NCBI GenBank assembly: GCA_902606835.1
Contig: CACLHW010000003.1
Coordinates: 62,001 to 126,000, forward strand
Source of the DNA: an uncultured Pelagibacteraceae bacterium
Lineage (GTDB): Bacteria; Pseudomonadota; Alphaproteobacteria; Pelagibacterales; Pelagibacteraceae
Direction: 5' to 3'
DNA: 64,000 nucleotides
Of the stretch, positions 27,830 through 38,641 are shown in pieces (position 1 is the stretch's first letter; each line of letters opens with the position of its first letter). A program made the position numbers and the translations under genes. The notes below the pieces were generated by a model, which saw only the letters and a program-made list of their open reading frames with translations, was not told the DNA's origin and searched no databases.

Positions 27830-29110
27830 ATGAGAAAAATATTAACCATAGCCATATTTAGCTGTTTGTTTTGCGGTAGCAGTTTCGCTGAATCTTACTT
27901 TTTTAAAGGGTGTGAAATAAGTAGCGTGGTAACCGGAAGTTACGTAATCAATATTAAAAAGAATGTAATTGAAGTTGAATTAAAAAGCGCAGATGGCCTA
28001 ATTCAAAATTTTTCGGACAAAATTAAATCTATTAAAGCTGGTAAGATTATTAGCGAAAAAATAAAAAGTGGTAAAGGAGAAAACATTTACTATCAGTATT
28101 TTTTAAATTCTAAAGCTAAGTCTGTAATAAAGTTAGAATTTATTAAAGAAGGTGGAGCAGAAATGAGTGTATTTAAATTAAACTCAAAAAGAGTAAGTTA
28201 TTGTTCAGATATTAAAGGAGGATGGGATAAGCAAAAAATAGAAAAAGCTAAGATTGAAAAAGAACAAGAAGAAATATTAAAAGCCCAAGAAGAGTTAAGA
28301 AAAGAACAAGAGAAAATATTTGAGTGTCAGGGAAAAGATGTTAAAGAATGGGAAAATTGTAAGGGCTCTTATAAATCAGAAACTGGACTTGTTTACAAAG
28401 GAATGTTTAAAAACGGTAAAATCGTTAAAGGAATTTCAATATATCCAGGAGGTTCAAAATATGTTGGGGAATTTATAAATTTTAAACCTGAAGGATATGG
28501 AACCTTTCTTTGGGATAATGGTGATAGATATTATGGTAATTGGAAAAATGGTAAGGCGCATGGAAAAGGAACAAAACTTTGGAGTGATGGAAGAGAATAC
28601 GACGGAACATTTAAAAATGATAAGTTAGATGGAGAAGGCAGTCTTTACTACCCTGATGGAAAAAAATATGAAGGAGGATTCTTAAATGGAAAACGTCACG
28701 GTGAGGGAATTTTTACATATCCTGATGGTACTGCATATATAGGAAAATTTTTAGCTGGAAAAGAACAGGGTATTGGAGATTGTGTTGCTGTAGATGGATC
28801 TGTTGTTAAATGTAAAAGCAAAATAGAAACTCAGGCTAAAAAATTTACTGGAAAAGATACCCGTGATATTTCAATAGTTGCAAGAAGATGGGTTAGAATT
28901 AGTCAATATGAAGCTAATTCGAAAAAAGGAAAAAAAATTATGGATAAATTAAAAGCTGACTTTGAAGTTAAAGCAAAAGAAGCTTGCATGCCTAAATCAT
29001 ATAACACACTGGAAAAGAAAATTGATGTATTGGAAATTGACGAAACGCCAGCTTACGGTTTAGAAACTAAACTTAAAATTGGTATTAACGGTGTTGTTGA
29101 GTGTATTTAA
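27830..29110 (+). CDS. Secreted MORN-repeat protein
   Basis: A 426-residue exported protein. The signal peptide (1-20) ends SCLFCGSSFA. An unassigned beta-rich domain follows (about 21-125), then a charged coiled-coil stretch (about 130-165) and six MORN repeats of about 23 residues (about 185-325), each like YYGNWKNGKAHGKGTKLW. A final helical/beta domain (about 345-426) closes the protein. MORN arrays commonly bind lipids or act as scaffolds. The next gene starts directly at its stop. The exact role is unknown; an envelope location is likely. Confidence 0.8.
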   Translation: MRKILTIAIFSCLFCGSSFAESYFFKGCEISSVVTGSYVINIKKNVIEVELKSADGLIQNFSDKIKSIKAGKIISEKIKSGKGENIYYQYFLNSKAKSVIKLEFIKEGGAEMSVFKLNSKRVSYCSDIKGGWDKQKIEKAKIEKEQEEILKAQEELRKEQEKIFECQGKDVKEWENCKGSYKSETGLVYKGMFKNGKIVKGISIYPGGSKYVGEFINFKPEGYGTFLWDNGDRYYGNWKNGKAHGKGTKLWSDGREYDGTFKNDKLDGEGSLYYPDGKKYEGGFLNGKRHGEGIFTYPDGTAYIGKFLAGKEQGIGDCVAVDGSVVKCKSKIETQAKKFTGKDTRDISIVARRWVRISQYEANSKKGKKIMDKLKADFEVKAKEACMPKSYNTLEKKIDVLEIDETPAYGLETKLKIGINGVVECI

Positions 29111-29806
29111 ATGAAAAAATTATCCTTACCCAACGTTACACTTTTGGCGGCTACCTCGGTTGAAATAGATCAAGCTCAAATTTCAATGAGAATTTCACTA
29201 CACAATATAAAATTCGGAGCGGTTAAACTATTGTCTTCCTCTGCTCCAAAAAAAAAATATCCAGACATAGAATATGTATCTATACCTAATATGGATTTCT
29301 TAGGTTATAACCGATTAATTCTAGAAGATTTGCATAAATATTTTGAAACATCTCATTGTTTAATTATTCAAGCTGATAGTTTTGTTGTTAATTCTAGTTT
29401 GTGGAAAGATGAATTTTTAAACTTTGACTATATAGGCGCACCTTGGTCAGAAAAAGTTCAGATTAAACCTGAACTTACTTTACATATGAAAAAAAACTGT
29501 GTAGGAAATGGCGGTTTTTCTTTAAGAAGTCGTAAATTAGTTGAGAGAACTGCAAAAATAAAGTTTAGTTCATTAGATCTTCCTATCTATCATGAAGATG
29601 TCATTATATGTCATTATCTATACGAAAAAATGATAGAAAGTGGCATAAACTTTGCCCCTCCAAAACTTGCGTCTGAATTTTCAATAGAAAATGTTAATCA
29701 TCTTTACGGACAAGATGTAAATACTGTATTTGGCTTCCACGGAAAGCACCTAAGAGCCCATTTTTTAAAAAAATATGCACTACGTGCACCAATAGGAGAG
29801 TGGTAA
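29111..29806 (+). CDS. DUF5672-family protein (probable glycosyltransferase-like)
   Basis: A 231-residue protein matching DUF5672. It opens with LPNVTLLAATSVEIDQAQIS and has LIIQADSFVVNSSLWKDEFL, the DYIGAPW segment, and GNGGFSLRSRKLVER followed by HEDVIICHYL. The pattern of an Asp motif, GGFSLRS and ED resembles GT-A glycosyltransferases. It is immediately downstream of the MORN gene (0 nt gap) and upstream of the radical SAM and GT2 genes, so it is part of a glycan-related set. The acceptor and donor are unknown. Confidence 0.7.
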   Translation: MKKLSLPNVTLLAATSVEIDQAQISMRISLHNIKFGAVKLLSSSAPKKKYPDIEYVSIPNMDFLGYNRLILEDLHKYFETSHCLIIQADSFVVNSSLWKDEFLNFDYIGAPWSEKVQIKPELTLHMKKNCVGNGGFSLRSRKLVERTAKIKFSSLDLPIYHEDVIICHYLYEKMIESGINFAPPKLASEFSIENVNHLYGQDVNTVFGFHGKHLRAHFLKKYALRAPIGEW

Positions 29807-29836
29807 ATTTATAAAAAAAAATATAGTATTTAACAA

Positions 29837-31147
29837 ATGTTAAAAAAATATAACCTTACAAATCTTAAAAAAGTATTAAATTATAATAATAATAAAGTTG
29901 TTTTAAGGGGAGCGGGCTCACTTGGTAAACTGGCTATAAATGCTTTGCAAAAATTAGATATCAAAGTAGATTATTTTTGGGACAAAAATCCAAGAAAACA
30001 AGGATTAAAATATTGTAATGTTGAAGTTGTTGGTGATAAAAAAATTATAGAGCTTGGAAAAGAAATAAATATTTTTATCTGCAGCAATTACTTTTCTTTA
30101 GTAATACCCGAGCTTGAAAAATTAGGACTAAAAAATGTTTTTGACTGTTGTGAATTAATAGAAAATACTGATTATTCAAAAATTGCATTTAAAACAAATC
30201 AAGAAATACATGATTTTGGTAATATATTTAATAATTCTCCCTTTAACCAAAATCCTATAGAAGTAAAAAGAGTTTTAGATTTACACAGAACTGGTTTGGA
30301 AACTCAAAATAGCCAAAATTATAAAAATAATATTTCTAAAAAATTAAATATAAAATATATAGATATAGTAATTACAGAAAAATGTTCAATGAAATGCGTA
30401 GATTGCTCAAATTTAATGCAATATTACGTAGAACCAAAAGATAGTAGCTTAGAAATTCTTTTTGAAACTATAAAAAAGACTATGTCTTCAATAGATCACT
30501 TGTCAGAATTTAGAGTGATTGGTGGCGAGCCGTTTATGAATAGAAATATAGGAAAAATATTAGATTACTTAAAAACATTTGAAAACTTTTCAAGAATAAT
30601 TATTTATACAAATGCAACAATAATTCCTAAAAATAATAATTTAAAAGCTTTAAAACATCCAAAAGTATCACTGGATATTACACACTATAAAGATTACAAA
30701 TATTCTTTTAAAAATCATCCAAAGCTTATTAAAGTCTTAGAAGAAAATAAAATTAACTATGTGAGTCATACAGCGGATAGATGGACTGACAGTGGAAGAA
30801 TAAAAAAATATCACAGGACTGATGATCAGTTAAAAGATATTTTTTTAAACTGTTGTGTAGGAGATGTATTGACAATATTAAACGGAAAAATGTATAGATG
30901 CCCTTTTTCTGCTAACGCTCACAATATAAATGCCATACCATTTAATAAAGATGATATAATAAACGTGCTTGATAAGGACTTAGATCAAATAAAATTAAGG
31001 GAAAAAATAACAAAATTATATACAAGAAAAGATAGAAAAGAATATTTATCTGCCTGCAAATATTGCAAAGGTAGAGATTTTAATACAACAGAAATACCTG
31101 CTGGAATACAAACAAAAGAAATATTAAAAAATCCCAAATTTAATTAA
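29837..31147 (+). CDS. Radical SAM protein with N-terminal Rossmann-like module
   Basis: A 436-residue protein of two parts. The first (about 18-110) resembles a nucleotide-binding fold with KVVLRGAGSLGKLAINAL and a later VDYFWDKNPRK. The second is a radical SAM domain with the cluster motif EKCSMKCVDC (C183, C187, C190) and the GGEPFM motif. Late cysteines, NCCVGDVL with MYRCPF and ACKYC, could bind a second cluster in SPASM style. A surface-sugar or peptide modification role is plausible from the neighbours, but the substrate cannot be named. Confidence 0.75.
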   Translation: MLKKYNLTNLKKVLNYNNNKVVLRGAGSLGKLAINALQKLDIKVDYFWDKNPRKQGLKYCNVEVVGDKKIIELGKEINIFICSNYFSLVIPELEKLGLKNVFDCCELIENTDYSKIAFKTNQEIHDFGNIFNNSPFNQNPIEVKRVLDLHRTGLETQNSQNYKNNISKKLNIKYIDIVITEKCSMKCVDCSNLMQYYVEPKDSSLEILFETIKKTMSSIDHLSEFRVIGGEPFMNRNIGKILDYLKTFENFSRIIIYTNATIIPKNNNLKALKHPKVSLDITHYKDYKYSFKNHPKLIKVLEENKINYVSHTADRWTDSGRIKKYHRTDDQLKDIFLNCCVGDVLTILNGKMYRCPFSANAHNINAIPFNKDDIINVLDKDLDQIKLREKITKLYTRKDRKEYLSACKYCKGRDFNTTEIPAGIQTKEILKNPKFN

Positions 31148-31176
31148 TTAATAAAAATTGGTAGTTTTCTAAAAAG

Positions 31177-32547
31177 ATGAAAGAAAAACCTTTAATTTCA
31201 ATTATAATACCAGTTTATAATACGGAATTTAAACTTTTAAAGAGATGCTTAAATTCAATTATAAATCAAAAGGTTTCTTTTGTTGAAATTATCATTGTAA
31301 ATGACGGGTCAACTACAAAAGTAAAAAAATTTTTATTCAATTATAAAAGAAAATGTAAATTCATAAGAATTGTAGATAGTAAAAAAAATTGCGGCACTTC
31401 AATATCAAAAAATAAGGGTCTTAAAAAAGCCAAGGGCGATTATATAAATTTTGTAGACTCGGATGATTGTATTTATAAAAATACATTAAAGAAAATAAAA
31501 CATAATATTATCAAGGAAAACTTTCCTGATATGATTATCGCGAAATATAACACAAATTTAAGTGAAATGAGGGGGGAAAAAAAATTCAAAGATGGAAGTT
31601 TCACTTATAAAAATTATGATAAAAAATATATTTTTAATAATAAAATAAATTTTACTTATAAAATTGATTGTTTGTGGAGATACTTTATTCGAAGAAAATT
31701 AGTAATAAAAAATAATATATCCTTTGAACCTACAGCCTATAAAAATGAAGATAAAGAATTTATGGTTAAAACTTTTTTAAGCGCCAAAAGTTTTTTCTTT
31801 GTGAATTTAATTTATTACTACTACTTTTTACACAACAAGAATTTAAGTTGGACAGATAGATACTCTTTTTACAAAGTATGTCTTGGTAATTATAATTGCA
31901 TTAAAAATATTATTTTTTTCCTTAAAGAAAATAAAATAAATGATGAAAAAAAGCTTGAATTTGCTTTCATTTTTTTAAATGATCTTGTTTTAATGTTAAA
32001 TTTGAATATTTTAAATTTAGATTTCAACCAAGTTAAAATTTTTCAAAATAAAATAAACAAACAAAGAAAAATATTTAATTTTTATCATAAATACTTTTTC
32101 TTTGAATTTCTTAAAGCATCTTTAAAAGAAAATATTGACAGAATTAATAATATATTTTTATCAAAATTGTACTTTTTAGATCAAGAAAGGAAGAGGAAAA
32201 TTTATGTTTATGGTGCTAGTGAATATGCATTGCCGCTTTTGAAAGTCCTTAGAAAAAAACATTACCCAATATTAGGTTTTTTGGACTCAAATTTTTATAG
32301 ATTCGATAAAAAAACATACAAACTGAAAATTTTTTCTACTAAAGATATGCTTATAAAACTTAAAAAGTATAAAAATGATATGATAATTATTGTTTGTCAT
32401 CCTCATATACAAACATGCAAAAGAATTGAGAGACGACTTATCCGACTTGGTGTAAATAAAAAAAATATGATCAGGTTAGATGAAAATATATTAGGTTTAT
32501 TTAGTTCATTTACCAAAATATCAAGCAACTATAAATTTTTAAGATAA
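31177..32547 (+). CDS. GT2 glycosyltransferase with C-terminal Rossmann-like module
   Basis: A 456-residue protein. The N-terminal GT-A domain has SIIIPVYNTEFKLLKRCLNS, the nucleotide-binding IIVNDGST, and the metal-binding NFVDSDDCIY. After a very Lys/Asn/Phe-rich middle, the C-terminus (about 345-440) has KIYVYGASEYALPLLKVL and PILGFLDSN, like the N-terminal module of the radical SAM protein just upstream. It ends 1 nt before the 3' end of the convergent tRNA-Lys. It probably adds a sugar to a surface glycan. Confidence 0.82.
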   Translation: MKEKPLISIIIPVYNTEFKLLKRCLNSIINQKVSFVEIIIVNDGSTTKVKKFLFNYKRKCKFIRIVDSKKNCGTSISKNKGLKKAKGDYINFVDSDDCIYKNTLKKIKHNIIKENFPDMIIAKYNTNLSEMRGEKKFKDGSFTYKNYDKKYIFNNKINFTYKIDCLWRYFIRRKLVIKNNISFEPTAYKNEDKEFMVKTFLSAKSFFFVNLIYYYYFLHNKNLSWTDRYSFYKVCLGNYNCIKNIIFFLKENKINDEKKLEFAFIFLNDLVLMLNLNILNLDFNQVKIFQNKINKQRKIFNFYHKYFFFEFLKASLKENIDRINNIFLSKLYFLDQERKRKIYVYGASEYALPLLKVLRKKHYPILGFLDSNFYRFDKKTYKLKIFSTKDMLIKLKKYKNDMIIIVCHPHIQTCKRIERRLIRLGVNKKNMIRLDENILGLFSSFTKISSNYKFLR

Positions 32548-32548
32548 A

Positions 32549-32624
32549 TGGTGGACTGTGTGAGGATCGAACTCACGACCTAATGATTAAGAGTCATCCG
32601 CTCTACCAACTGAGCTAACAGTCC
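32549..32624 (-). tRNA. tRNA-Lys (anticodon CTT)
   Basis: A full 76 nt cloverleaf with an encoded CCA. The acceptor GGACTGT pairs with ACAGTCC, the discriminator is A, the D-arm has AGCTCAGTTGGTAGAGC, the anticodon stem GATGA/TCATT encloses CTCTTAA (anticodon CTT), and the T-arm has GTTCGATCC. It reads the AAG codon. Confidence 0.95.
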
Positions 32625-32632
32625 ACAATCAA

Positions 32633-32800
32633 TTAGTTTAAAATCAAATACATTGCTATTAAAACCAAAACCATTAAGACAATTGATCCACTTGTATAAT
32701 ATTTTTGACGTTCTAATGCTTTCATTTTTTTATAGATAGGAGTTTGTAATTCCTCTGTATAATATTCTTTTATAGGCAGACCGTTTTTATCGTATTTCAT
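32633..32800 (-). CDS. Small single-pass membrane protein, 55 residues
   Basis: A 55-codon ORF directly upstream of tRNA-Lys on the same strand. The product has a soluble part, MKYDKNGLPIKEYYTEELQT and onward, then one hydrophobic helix at the C-terminus (about 38-55, SIVLMVLVLIAMYLILN). The mixed composition and clean topology look like a real tail-anchored protein. No Shine-Dalgarno site is obvious, and no family is recognised. Confidence 0.5.
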   Translation of the reverse strand: MKYDKNGLPIKEYYTEELQTPIYKKMKALERQKYYTSGSIVLMVLVLIAMYLILN

Positions 32801-32844
32801 AATAATTAGTTTACTAAAAAGTATTTTTTAAGAAAATAAAAAAA

Positions 32845-32912
32845 ATGACGGAGAGAGTGGGATTCGAATCCGCGGTACCTTTGACAGTACACAAGCTTTC
32901 CAAGCCTGCGCC
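32845..32912 (-). pseudogene. Decayed 3' fragment of tRNA-Ser (attachment-site-like repeat, copy A)
   Basis: This 68 bp segment matches 34578-34645 with three mismatches. It covers the anticodon arm, variable arm, T-arm and 3' acceptor strand of the intact tRNA-Ser gene, but the 5' acceptor strand and most of the D-arm are missing. Two differences break pairs in the T-stem and one spoils the terminal CCA, so it cannot be a working tRNA. It bounds a 1.7 kb unit on the side away from the intact tRNA, as expected of a displaced target end after tRNA-site integration. Confidence 0.8.
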
Positions 32913-33018
32913 GAGAACTTTGGTATATATGCCTGAATTACGAAACCCAAAGTGAACTCTTTGGTACCTTTTTAGTGGCTAAAATAGGTGTACAATAATT
33001 CTTTGTTTGAGAGGGATT

Positions 33019-34578
33019 ATGGGGAAAAAATCTAAAAAGAGAGTTAAAAAAAGAAAAACCAAAAAATATAATAAAAATAAAGTTAATGGAGCGGGTATAG
33101 ATCTACAAAAAGCTGTAGATCTTAAATTTAAAACTCTAGGCAAAATTTATAAAAATTTTACAGAAAAACGCGAAAGAGAAAAAAAAGAAAAAGTAAAATT
33201 AAAAGAAAAAAATAGAGAAAAACAAATTAAAGAAGAACAAAAGCAGTTAAAAGAAGATGAAAAACGGTTAAAAAAAGAGGAAGAAAGTAGATTAAAAGAA
33301 ATTAGCTTTATAAGAATTGAACAAGAGAGAAAGACAAAAGAAGAACAAGAAGAGCGAGAAAAAATTGATCCAATTTATAAGGAGGGTATAGCAAAAGCAG
33401 AACAAGAAAAGCTGGAAGAACTTGAAAGGATTTCTCGATTAAAAGAAAAGCGAATAATAGATGAGCAACAAAAATTAGAAGAGATGAACCAAACTTACAC
33501 TGAAAAATTAGAAAAAATAGAAAATGAAAACATAATAGCTCTTGAGGAAATCAATAAATTAAAAGAAAAAAGAATAGAAGAAGAACAGAAAGAAAAGGAG
33601 AAATTAGATCAACATTATAAGGAAAAAATAGAAAACGAAAAACAAAGAAGAATCGCAAAAAAGGAATTAAAAAAAGCTAAAGCTGAAGAAGCAAAAAGAT
33701 TAGAATTAGAAGAACTATCAAAAATAAAAGAAGAAAACAGAATACTAAAAGAAAAAGAAGAGAATAATTTAAAAAAAGAAAAAGAAAGAAGGTTAAAAGC
33801 TGAAGAAAAAAGAAGATCAAATGATGAGACCATAAGAAAAATAAGAGATGAACAAATATTACTAAAGGAAAAAGAAAAAAGCTTAGAAGAAGAATCTATA
33901 AGAATATTGGAAGAGGAAGAAAATATAAGATTTAAAGAGGAAGAAAAAAGAAGATTACTAGATGAAACTAGAAGATTGAAAGAAGAAGAAAGGAAAATTA
34001 AAAAAGAAAAAAAAATAAAATTAGAAGAAGATGAAGAAAGAAGATTACTAGAAGAAGAGGAAAGAAAAATAAAAGCAGATGAAGATGAAACTTCAGAAAA
34101 ATTAAATTTAATAAAAATAAAAAAAGAAAAAGGAATTGAAGAAGAGAGGAAATTAATTGAAAAAACGGAACAAACTTACAAAAATAAATTGGATGACGCT
34201 GAAGAAAAAAAACTCTCACACCTTGAGGAAATAAATAAATTAAAAGAAAAAAGAATATCAGATGAAAATGAAGCTAGAAGAAAATTGGATAAAATTCATA
34301 AAAATAAAATAGAAGAAATAGAAAAAGATAAATCAAACCGTCTTGAAGAGGCAAAAAGAATAATAGAAAAAAAATTAAAAGAAGAAGAGAAAAACAGGAG
34401 ATTAAAAGAAGAACAAGAAAGAAAACAAAGGGCAGAAGAAGCTAGAAAAATACAAATTAAAGAAGTAGAAACAGCAAAAGAGATTGAAAGGAAAAATTTA
34501 AGAAAAATTGAAGAAAGAAGGTTAGGTCTACCTCTCGAACAGGAAAATTCAGAACAAGAAAAAAAGGATCAGAGTTAA
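33019..34578 (+). CDS. Lys/Glu-rich coiled-coil protein with 40-residue repeats
   Basis: A protein of about 519 residues. I prefer the ATG at 33019, behind GAGAGGG, over the TTG at 33007. The first 25 residues are very basic (MGKKSKKRVKKRKTKKYNKN), followed by a short normal segment (GAGIDLQKAVDLKFKTLGKI). The rest is a highly charged helix. Counting from 33007, Tyr124, Tyr164 and Tyr204 are exactly 40 apart and sit in repeats ending near LKEKRI; a second pair holds Tyr391 and His431. No enzyme motif, signal peptide or membrane segment is seen. A -10-like TACAAT lies at 32991. The stop touches the tRNA-Ser 3' end. Confidence 0.7.
   Translation: MGKKSKKRVKKRKTKKYNKNKVNGAGIDLQKAVDLKFKTLGKIYKNFTEKREREKKEKVKLKEKNREKQIKEEQKQLKEDEKRLKKEEESRLKEISFIRIEQERKTKEEQEEREKIDPIYKEGIAKAEQEKLEELERISRLKEKRIIDEQQKLEEMNQTYTEKLEKIENENIIALEEINKLKEKRIEEEQKEKEKLDQHYKEKIENEKQRRIAKKELKKAKAEEAKRLELEELSKIKEENRILKEKEENNLKKEKERRLKAEEKRRSNDETIRKIRDEQILLKEKEKSLEEESIRILEEEENIRFKEEEKRRLLDETRRLKEEERKIKKEKKIKLEEDEERRLLEEEERKIKADEDETSEKLNLIKIKKEKGIEEERKLIEKTEQTYKNKLDDAEEKKLSHLEEINKLKEKRISDENEARRKLDKIHKNKIEEIEKDKSNRLEEAKRIIEKKLKEEEKNRRLKEEQERKQRAEEARKIQIKEVETAKEIERKNLRKIEERRLGLPLEQENSEQEKKDQS
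33338..34360 (+). repeat. Degenerate 120 bp (40-codon) repeats in the coiled-coil gene
   Basis: Two blocks are visible. Three units cover about residues 110-230 (33334-33696) and two cover about 377-451 (34135-34359), counting from 33007. The repeated phrase is EEINKLKEKRI, present near 180-190 and 407-417 and in altered form at 140-150. The two blocks are separated by a stretch of shorter EEERRLLEEE-like repeats. Confidence 0.55.
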
Positions 34579-34668
34579 TGGCGGAGAGAGTGGGATTCGA
34601 ACCCACGGTACCTTTGACAGTACACAAGCTTTCCAAGCCTGCGCCTTAAACCGCTCGGCCATCTCTCC
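34579..34668 (-). tRNA. tRNA-Ser (anticodon GGA)
   Basis: A 90 nt class II tRNA with a long variable arm and encoded CCA. The acceptor GGAGAGA pairs with TCTCTCC, the discriminator is G, the anticodon loop is TTGGAAA (anticodon GGA), and the T-arm is GTGGG/CCCAC around TTCGAAT. It reads TCC and TCT codons. Its 3' two thirds are repeated at 32845-32912. Confidence 0.95.
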
Positions 34669-34763: not shown

Positions 34764-36836
34764 ATGTATAAAAATTATCGTCCAGAAATTGATGGTCTTC
34801 GAGCTTTAGCTGTTTTGCCTGTCATACTATATCACGCTGGCATCGAAATTTTTAAAGGTGGTTTTGTTGGGGTCGATATTTTTTTCGTAATTAGTGGTTA
34901 TCTAATTACAACTATAATTTTAAAAGATATCGAAAAAAATAATTTTAGACTAACTTATTTTTATCAAAGAAGAGCAAGAAGAATATTACCCGCATTAATA
35001 ACTGTCATAGCATTAAGCTTGCCTGTTGCCATTTTTTTATTACCCCCAGAAGACTTAATGAATTTCTCAAAAAGTGTTATTTCATCTCTAACTTTTTGGT
35101 CAAATTTCCAATTTTCATCTGAAACTGGATACTTTAATACACCCGGAGAATACAAGCCTTTGCTACATACGTGGAGTTTATCAATAGAAGAACAATTTTA
35201 TATTTTTTATCCATTATTTTTTATTTTGCTATTTAAATTTAAAAAAAAATTTTTTAATTTATCTCTAATTTTAATTTTTATTTTAAGTTTATTTTTTGCC
35301 CAATGGAGTGGGAATTTTAATCGTACTTATCCGTTTATAGATACAAACCTACAATTTTATTCGCAGTCTGCCTTCTCTGAATTTATGATGCCGTTTGGTC
35401 GAATCTGGGAATTAGCACTTGGTGCAATTTGTGCCATGACAATAAACTATAAAAATAATTATTTTAGTTTTGCTCGAATTAAAGAAAAAGAAAATTTTTT
35501 GTTTAATATTTTTTCTCTAGTAGGTTTTCTTTTAATATTTTTTTCAATTTTTTATCTATCAACAAGTCATCCATATCCAAGCTTTTATACATTAATTCCA
35601 ACTTTAGGAACGGCTTTAATTATCCTTTTTTCCAGAGAAAATACGTTAATTCAAAAAATATTGTCCAATAAAATTTTAGTTTTTTGTGGTCTTATTTCTT
35701 ATAGTGCTTATTTATTTCATTATCCTATTTTTTCATTTATTAAATATTTAAATGTAGAAATAAAAATTTATTCTTACTTTTATTTAATTCCTCTAATTTT
35801 GCTCATTTCATTTTTGAATTGGAAATGGGTAGAAAAGCCATTTAGAAAAAAAGATGCGTCAGTTAGTAAACTAATAAAATTTATTGTTTTTTCATATCTC
35901 ATAATAATTCCTGTGTGCTTTTTTATCTATAGTGGCAATGGTTTAGATAAAAGGCAAAAATTTGAATTACCAAAAAATATTTCAAATTCATTTGTTTTTG
36001 AAAAAGATGGTAAAAACTGTTTTGATATTAATTATATTCATCAAAAACAAAATGAAGAAAAAATTTGCAAAATAGGAAAAATAGAAAATAAAAAAATTGA
36101 CTTTATTGCTTTCGGAGATAGCCATTTAATTAATTTTTATCCATTGCTTGATGTTTTGGCAATAAAACATAACAAAAAAGGATTATTTTTAGGTTATCAC
36201 GGATGCCCACCTTTAATTGGTGTTTACCCATTAAGGCCTGATCAAAATGAAAAAAATTGTTATGAATTAAACAAATTGGTTTTAGAAATTGCTAAAGAAA
36301 ATAATATTAAAAATTTAATCCTTGTATCCAGATGGACTTATTACACCGGTGGAGACGCCCAAGGTGATAATATTCAATACTTAAATTTAAAACCTGCTCG
36401 AAGTTCAAATAAAATACTTTCAAGAGAGGCATTTGAAAAAGGATTAGATGATACGCTAAAAAATTATGCAAATCAAAATACTACAATTCATCTAGTTGAA
36501 CAGTTGCCTTTCCAAAAAATTGATGCAAAGAAAATTTATTACAGGTCTTTTGATAATAATTCAAAAATATTTAGAAATAACCTAATTAAATATTCTGTCG
36601 ATGTAAAAGAACACAACCAATTACAACTATTTGTTAATAAAATATTTAAAAAAATTGCTACTAAATATAGTAATTTAAATTTAGTTAATTTTGATGATAT
36701 ATTTTGTGATAAAAAAATTAAAAAATGTTTAATAGGAAATGAAAATTATTCTTTTTACGTTGATAAAGGGCATTTAACAGTTGAAGGTGCAAATTTGACT
36801 CACGAAAAAATTAGCATTTTATTTAGAAAATTTTAA
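34764..36836 (+). CDS. Acyltransferase-3 / SGNH O-acetyltransferase (OafA-like)
   Basis: A 690-residue membrane enzyme likely to O-acetylate surface polysaccharide. The N-terminal acyltransferase-3 domain (about 1-350) has [20 protein letters not shown] with its active-site His and about ten membrane helices, plus [14 protein letters not shown]. The C-terminal SGNH domain begins near 440 with [13 protein letters not shown] (Ser nucleophile) and ends with KGHLTVEGA (catalytic His). It follows tRNA-Ser by about 95 bp and overlaps the convergent lepA stop by 4 nt. Confidence 0.92.
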
Positions 36837-38641
36837 ACGTCTCTATTTATTTTTAAAACTCCAATGAAAGCTTCTTGTGGAATTTCAACCTTTCCAAATT
36901 GTTTTGCTCTAGCTTTCCCTTTTTTTTGTTTATCTAATAATTTTCTTTTCCTATCTCTTGCTCCTCCACCATGGATTTTGGTAAGTACATCTTTTTTAAA
37001 TCCTTTAATAGTTTCTCTAGCAATAATTTTTCCTCCTATAGCTGCCTGGATAGGAATTTGAAAGTTATGTCGTGGAATTAATTCTTTAAGTTTTTCGCAA
37101 ACTTGCCTACCTTGGGACTGAGCAAAATCTTTGTAAATAATCATAGATAAAGCATCTACAGGTTCTGCATTAACAAGTATTCCCATTTTAACTAAATCAC
37201 CTTCCTTATAACCTGTAATTTCATAATCAAAACTAGCATATCCGCTCGATAAGGACTTTAGTCGATCATAAAAATCAAAAACAACTTCATTTAATGGTAA
37301 TTCATAACTTAATACTGCGCGGTTCCCTGAATAGGTTAAATTATTTTGAGTGCCTCTTTTATCTTGGCATATTTTAATTATTGAGCCTAAATATTGATCT
37401 GGAGTAATAATCGTAGCTTTAATCCAAGGTTCTTCTATGGATAAAATTTGGGTTGGATCTGGCATATCAGTTGGGTTTTGTAATTCTTTAATAGATCCAT
37501 CTCTTTTATTAATTTTATAAATTACACCTGGCGTTGTTGTAATTAGATTTATATCAAATTCTCTTTCTAACCTTTGTGTTACGATTTCTAAATGAAGCAA
37601 ACCTAAAAAACCGCAACGAAAACCTAACCCCAAAGCGCTTGATGCCTCTGGTTCATATGAAAAACTTGAATCGTTAAGTTTTAATTTTGCAATTCCATCT
37701 TTAAGTTTTTGATATTCAGAATTATCAACAGGAAATAAACCGCAGAAAACTACTGGTTTACTTGGTTTAAATCCTGGCAATGGCTTATCTATAGGATTTT
37801 GCACATCACATATTGTATCTCCAACTTTGGTATCGGATAAATTTTTTATTCCAGTAATAATAAAACCAATTTCTCCTGATGAAATTTTATCAACATCTTT
37901 TGGTTTGGGAGTAAACACTCCTACTTTCTCAATTGTATGCTCAGTGTTATTCGACATCATTCTAATTTTCATTCCTTTTTTCAAACTTCCATCAATAGTC
38001 CTTACTAAAATTACAACTCCCAAGTAGCTGTCATACCAACTGTCTACAAGCAAACACTTTAGTGGATTTTCTAAATTTCCTTTGGGTGGAGGTAAAATTT
38101 TTACTATAGATTCTAAAATATCATCTACTCCTTCTCCTGTTTTTCCAGAACAATTTATTGTTTTACTAGTATCTATTCCAATCACATCCTCGATCTGTTT
38201 TTTTACTTTCTCAGTGTCTGAAGCAGGTAAATCAATTTTGTTTAGCACGGGAATAATTTCATGATTATTATCAAGCGCTTGATATACATTTGCTAGAGTT
38301 TGCGCTTCGACACCTTGTGAACTATCAACGATCAAAATAGAACCTTCGCATGCTGATAATGATCTACTTACCTCATAACTAAAATCAACATGTCCCGGGG
38401 TATCAATAATATTAAGAATATAATCTTTTCCGTCTTTTGATTTATAGTTCAACCGAACCGTTTGTGCCTTTATTGTAATACCTCTTTCTCTTTCTATGTC
38501 CATTGAATCTAAAACTTGTTCTTTCATTTCTCTTTCTGTAAGACCTCCACATTTATGAATTAATCTATCAGCTAATGTAGACTTTCCGTGATCGATGTGC
38601 GCAATTATTGAAAAATTGCGAATATTTTCATTGTTTGACAT
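36833..38641 (-). CDS. lepA: Elongation factor 4 (LepA)
   Basis: A 602-residue translational GTPase that acts on ribosomes during elongation or assembly. GTPase motifs are [20 protein letters not shown] (G1), [10 protein letters not shown] (G2), [12 protein letters not shown] (G3) and NKIDLPASD (G4). The C-terminal [20 protein letters not shown] is the LepA-specific end. It is last in a minus-strand translation block, overlapping the pheT stop by 1 nt. Confidence 0.97.

Follow-up and report, generated by a model that had tools for sequence, protein, structure and literature searches.

Cis-mobilizable elements (CIMEs) are integrase-less elements that lie between attachment repeats and have been described as decayed ICEs or IMEs (PMC5704250). 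Islands without integration modules are also described at the ssrA gene of Dehalococcoides (PMC3146451). tRNA-targeted cassettes of additive flexible genomic islands are described in Actinomarinales (PMC7771536), in fGI-2 of Methylopumilus (PMC10872708), and in Alteromonas (PMC4119200). Tycheposons, found in Prochlorococcus and others, measure 4-200 kb and carry a tyrosine recombinase, according to PMC10872708. Integrons and integrase-less cassette arrays (CALIN) are a further system of this kind (PMC11389934).

The window, a 64,000-nucleotide stretch of DNA analyzed here, comes from a SAR11 (Pelagibacteraceae) host whose nearest lepA matches are the single-cell genomes AG-464-A03 (97% protein identity) and AG-414-G15 (93%). 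It contains a tRNA-Ser(GGA) gene that, with reasonable confidence, serves in SAR11 as a dock for small integrase-less cassettes, most likely moved in trans by tyrosine integrases. As part of this explanation as a whole, the truncated tRNA-Ser copy in the window is probably the scar of one small site-specific insertion behind the gene. The units, each about 0.4-3 kb long and holding one to a few genes, would enter beside the intact tRNA-Ser(GGA). Because each insertion would leave the tRNA whole at its near end and only in part at its far end, later units would stack and push older ones outwards. Most units would carry the attachment ends of a tyrosine integrase, consisting of two arms about 44 bp past the tRNA and a matching far arm. 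These integrase-less units would most likely be moved by tyrosine integrases of phage or satellite type with the same tRNA as their target, presumably through a circular intermediate, and strand exchange would occur in the anticodon arm.

The full tRNA-Ser(GGA) gene occupies positions 34579-34668 on the minus strand, with its 5' end at 34668 and its CCA end at 34579 (ARAGORN and sequence), and its role as the insertion target is assigned on the basis that it is the insertion site in many relatives. A repeat search aligns 32844-32912 with 34577-34645 as a 69-nt same-strand repeat of 96% identity with 3 mismatches and a spacing of 1,733 bp, which matches the preliminary description of a 68-bp same-orientation tRNA-Ser repeat with 3 mismatches at a distance of 1.73 kb. 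The outer copy (32844-32912, minus strand) is a distal attachment-site repeat covering tRNA positions 24-92, a numbering that includes two bases past the CCA. It has lost the 5' part of the gene, carries TCA where CCA stood, and has two broken T-stem pairs (GTGGG/CCCAC to GCGGA/CCCAC), all of which had been noted earlier and are evident in the sequence; ARAGORN calls no tRNA at this copy. An ordinary second tRNA-Ser gene is rejected for the outer copy on account of these losses, and a chance repeat is implausible because 69 bp at 96% identity is far above chance.

The two copies enclose one ORF (33007-34578, with an ATG at 33019) and no integrase, in line with the earlier claim of a single coiled-coil gene. 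This cargo gene, F11 (33019-34578, plus strand), encodes a 519-aa Lys/Glu-rich coiled-coil protein with about 24% Glu and 22% Lys, and its TAA stop overlaps the two bases just past the tRNA-Ser CCA end. Its assignment draws on the ORF list and on codon-position divergence, in which third codon positions are the most variable, a pattern that indicates a real coding gene. The protein has no Pfam, PHROG, or PADLOC match. The right end of the unit extends from the truncated copy to the cargo start (32913-33018) and carries GAGAACTTTGGTATATATGCCTGAATTACGAAACCCAAAGTGAACTCTTTGG, which is kept beside the F11 gene in the relatives G006 and G015 and more weakly in G010.

On the left, the insertion site is marked by lepA (36833-38641, minus strand), which in most of the related genomes of the genus stops 2-3 bp short of tRNA-Ser. 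An acyltransferase-SGNH gene sits between lepA and tRNA-Ser in the window genome (34764-36836), and G008 has a different three-gene insert there. On the right, beyond the truncated copy, are a small ORF of 55 aa (F21; 32633-32800, minus strand) and tRNA-Lys(CTT) (32549-32624, minus strand; ARAGORN). G014 shares this right flank, with the F21 side and tRNA-Lys following a decayed tRNA-Ser copy, and carries other units upstream, which indicates that the array turns over at the window's own place. Beside tRNA-Lys is a variable stretch (27830-32547) encoding MORN-repeat-like, radical SAM, and glycosyltransferase proteins, several genes of which are missing from relatives at the same place.

The same architecture recurs across the genus. 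When 23 genomes of the genus are searched with the 92-bp tRNA-Ser, partial copies of 64, 69, 76, or 84 bp adjoin the full gene in many genomes, in the order lepA, tRNA-Ser, unit, truncated copy, unit, truncated copy, core genes. At least one truncated copy is present in 11 of the 16 genus genomes having the locus, in stacks of up to three (three copies in G006, three in G010, and two in G012), and the array contig of G020 carries two truncated copies in addition to one that is nearly full-length. Both a truncated copy and the coiled-coil gene are lacking in G008 and G021, the outcome that the proposed comparison with relatives had been expected to give under insertion. Rather than being shared by all relatives with core-like divergence, the coiled-coil gene is present in only 9 genomes and at different places in the array. 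Integration at the tRNA 3' end, as proposed in the preliminary description, is supported by these recurrent truncated copies and by the occurrence of both empty and filled sites. Many of the compared genomes bear single-cell assembly names, which argues against binning artefacts.

Across the family, a truncated copy occurs at 9 of 73 lepA-anchored loci with tRNA-Ser, and a restrictive left-end pattern is found in 18 of 397 genomes from four genera, which is a lower bound. The 37 units delimited in several genera measure 438-3,243 bp (median 1,210 bp), counts that include related units and come from incomplete genomes, and the genome set may hold overlaps such as G376 and the AG-914-D06 record. 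Presence and absence of units vary between strains. Their cargo includes small secreted or lipoprotein-like proteins, DUF805, a nuclease, an HNH-WYL protein, a methyltransferase, and large repeat proteins, and ORF lists of the units together with family scans of part of the cargo reveal no integrase or conjugation gene.

Several side observations concern the cargo and the scars. The L126, L129, and L155 units encode repeat proteins of 578-579 aa whose parts appear swapped within units; over their last 1,000 bp the L126 and L129 units agree at 98.3%, and by eye their N-terminal halves seem unrelated. Otherwise different cargo proteins in G006, G010, G012, G014, and G020 have nearly the same signal sequence at the N-terminus, MKKLLGILVLGLL, perhaps a preferred expression or secretion leader. 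ARAGORN calls some attachment scars real tRNA-Ser(GGA) genes (L048:11268-11354 and, in tRNA orientation, L207 2262-2344 and L212 3162-3244), and SAR11 annotations may count decayed attachment copies as extra tRNA-Ser genes.

The window unit itself has crossed between species. Third-codon divergence of F11 is 0.06 between the window genome (G000) and G006 and 0.02 between G000 and G015, where a 97-codon fragment is present, compared with 0.22-0.44 for lepA, pheT, and other neighbors in the same comparisons; this is far from the core-like divergence that would have spoken against insertion. For the same gene in G001 and G009, third-codon divergence is 2% over 129 codons versus 30-52% for neighbors. 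The block of identity between G000 and G006 (95.7% over 1,842 bp) runs from the tRNA start to 13 bp beyond the truncated copy, and the next aligned flanks are 87% and 77% identical. The limits of this block and the low third-codon divergence together indicate that the unit moved between species with these boundaries. The exchange was recent; its route is less certain, because the unit lacks arms.

Transfer between genera is also evident. G070 (genus g9) and G352 (genus g4) share a 1,182-bp unit at 99.3% identity; tRNA copies aside, a blastn comparison of the surrounding regions (12.0 and 10.8 kb) detects no further similarity. The G070 flank is truly that of g9, with G030, G080, G042, and G075 at 77-79% and G064 at 73%. 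In G030 and G080 the same flank directly follows the tRNA-Ser CCA end, so that for this unit, which is of the same kind as that of the window, relatives preserve the exact empty site. The F28 gene is 97.3% identical at the nucleotide level between G010 and G005, and the neighboring core genes are at 73-81%. Such near-identity across genera or species shows that the units moved as small units.

These comparisons leave very little room for local segmental duplication of the tRNA and its neighborhood without any mobility. The same-strand orientation of the copies and the short distance between them would suit such an event. From genome to genome, however, the DNA between the copies varies, its divergence is unlike that of core genes, and empty sites lack it; duplication is rejected on these grounds. 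They also bear on the choice, posed in the preliminary description, between a minimal cargo unit mobilized in trans and a remnant of a larger island: the near-identical small units across genera and species fit the former better and the latter more poorly. It is rather improbable that the units are decayed remnants, left from full islands or satellites after loss of the integrase and other genes and now immobile. Decay does occur in the arrays, with distal copies falling to 95% and then 80% in G014, and this agrees with a remnant origin, whereas the cross-genus and cross-species copies do not.

Attachment ends provide the next line of evidence for site-specific insertion. In most units an 8-mer is repeated with a period of exactly 11 bp about 44 bp downstream of the tRNA CCA end, with left arms such as TGGTCGTCGTATGGTCGTC, TGGTCGCACTATGGTCGCA, and TGCCGTCGCTGTGCCGTCG, and a related far-end motif lies about 70-85 bp before the truncated copy. 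Of 27 units in a period scan, 18 have 7 or 8 of 8 positions matching at period 11 (1% in shuffles), and no unit does so at periods 8-10 or 12-15. The left motif agrees with the right end of its own unit at 7.12 of 8 positions and with the right ends of other units at 5.62 of 8, a difference reached in 0 of 20,000 permutations, a count that is not an exact probability because the unit set includes relatives. Such paired arms are features expected of lambda-type integrase arm sites. Some arm pairs are degenerate or missing, the window unit included, which would suit decayed remnants; against such decay, gene starts closely follow the left arm in many units, and the unit ORF lists contain no integrase fragments.

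The window unit has no period-11 arm pair at either end, and its left end is coding sequence; consequently, it cannot be assigned to the same integrase. It may have another type of end, or it may have moved by homologous recombination across its tRNA repeats. As a general explanation, homologous recombination through the shared tRNA-Ser sequence or repeats, swapping cargo without a site-specific enzyme, is unlikely, though not negligible. It would account for the armless window unit and for identity blocks that start and stop at tRNA repeats, and 64-92-bp repeats, often 100% identical, are available for it. It leaves unexplained the fixed arm position and 11-bp period, the match of left and right arms within a unit, and how truncated copies newly arise at empty sites. 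Some of the transfers could still have come about by recombination across the tRNA repeats.

Where strands would be exchanged during site-specific insertion is suggested by chimeric tRNA copies. The first two truncated copies of G010 combine two tRNA-Ser types as reciprocal chimeras, and the switch falls within ten bases, GCTTGGAAAG, comprising the anticodon loop and adjoining stem. In G028, tRNA-Ser is split directly behind the anticodon loop by a 5.4-kb element whose other end bears a complete tRNA-Ser. Together, the G010 chimeras and the G028 break point to the anticodon arm as the likely place of strand exchange. G070 is also chimeric and fits anticodon-arm exchange only if its host earlier had the tRNA type of the other genus. 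Exchange at the 3' end was also considered; it fits G070 and fails on the reciprocal chimeras of G010.

Candidate enzymes for movement in trans are tyrosine integrases found at the same tRNA. G020 carries a 346-aa tyrosine integrase directly 3' of the full tRNA-Ser. The G028 element encodes an integrase with 47% identity to that of G020, a primase/helicase-like AAA protein, and a terminase-small-subunit-like protein; this element (L169:15011-19901, continuing into L170) is a possible very small SAR11 phage satellite. The integrase family is rare, occurring in 12 of 397 genomes, and its sites include tRNA-Ser, tRNA-Met, tRNA-Arg, and tmRNA, among others, with only two members at tRNA-Ser. The window's assembly (78% complete) contains no relative of the tRNA-Ser integrase. 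In 7 of the 12 family members a period-11 repeat lies just before the integrase start codon, compared with 3.7% in shuffles and 1 of 12 XerC/D-like controls. The G102 integrase repeat ACGGTCGCACTATGGTCGCA is the same motif as in a G006 unit, and the G028 arm TGGACGTCGTGTGGGCGTC resembles the arm TGGGCGTCATATGGGCGTC of an AG-325-J13 unit. By eye, the G020 integrase element shares a cargo relative with a unit in G052, a likeness that speaks for a remnant origin.

Scans of viral contigs and phage records with the tRNA-Ser core, with a unit end joined to the core, and with the G020 and G028 integrases find none that combines the core with the integrase. Phage records contain only distant integrases (<60% identity), and the best matches listed among them are mostly ordinary phage tRNA-Ser genes. 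Insertion of cassettes at tRNA-Ser(GGA) by integrases acting in trans is weakened as an explanation by the rarity of the matching integrase and by the armless window unit. A broader picture, offered tentatively, is an integron-like economy without integrons, in which the tRNA-Ser dock receives cassettes of about 0.4-3 kb with their own tRNA end and two arms, the cassettes stack there and are traded between genera, tyrosine integrases are borrowed from passing satellites or phages, and different arm types would correspond to different integrases.

The analysis pins down the insertion site and the anatomy of the units, points to a candidate enzyme family, and provides sequence evidence that units recently moved between species and genera, all of which is testable. 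If the explanation is true, borrowed integrases allow elements that consist of little beyond a gene and two short ends to spread. A partial tRNA accompanied by arms of 11-bp period provides a search signature for other tRNAs. In the open-access subset of the literature, no description was found of the unit anatomy as a whole, with usually one to a few genes per unit, 11-bp arms in pairs that have a matching arm at the far end, integrases whose family bears the same arms, and near-identical copies in different genera; earlier descriptions may exist.

The partial-tRNA cassettes of additive islands and CIMEs are already known, and the unit anatomy in SAR11 is what appears to be new. CIMEs and the ssrA islands resemble the SAR11 units in their attachment-repeat flanks, their lack of integration or transfer genes, and their accretion at one tRNA or tmRNA end. 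Unlike CIMEs, the SAR11 units are only 0.4-3 kb long, usually hold one to a few genes, mostly have conserved arms at both ends, and include near-identical copies across genera. As to an origin by CIME-type decay, no ICE or IME remains are seen in them, and the cargo relative of the G020 integrase element occurs, judged by eye, in a G052 unit. The cassettes of additive islands, in the available portions of their reports, are likewise added beside a tRNA and bounded by direct repeats of part of it, and those portions do not describe the arm repeats, unit anatomy, and candidate integrase given here for SAR11 tRNA-Ser. Tycheposons, as far as the available portion of the source describes them, are also cargo elements of marine bacteria bordered by tRNA genes, but the SAR11 units are 438-3,243 bp long and carry no tyrosine recombinase. 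Integrons and CALIN share with the SAR11 units small, stackable cassettes that depend, in SAR11 putatively, on an integrase in trans. They differ in the repeated site, which in SAR11 is a piece of tRNA-Ser accompanied by phage-type arms, and in the full tRNA that every SAR11 insertion leaves behind. Phage satellites (PICI, PICMI, and VEIME) are similar in their tRNA target, in their integrase family, and in the terminase small subunit of the G028 element; the SAR11 cassettes are without integrase, replication, and packaging genes, which only the 5.4-kb G028 element possesses.
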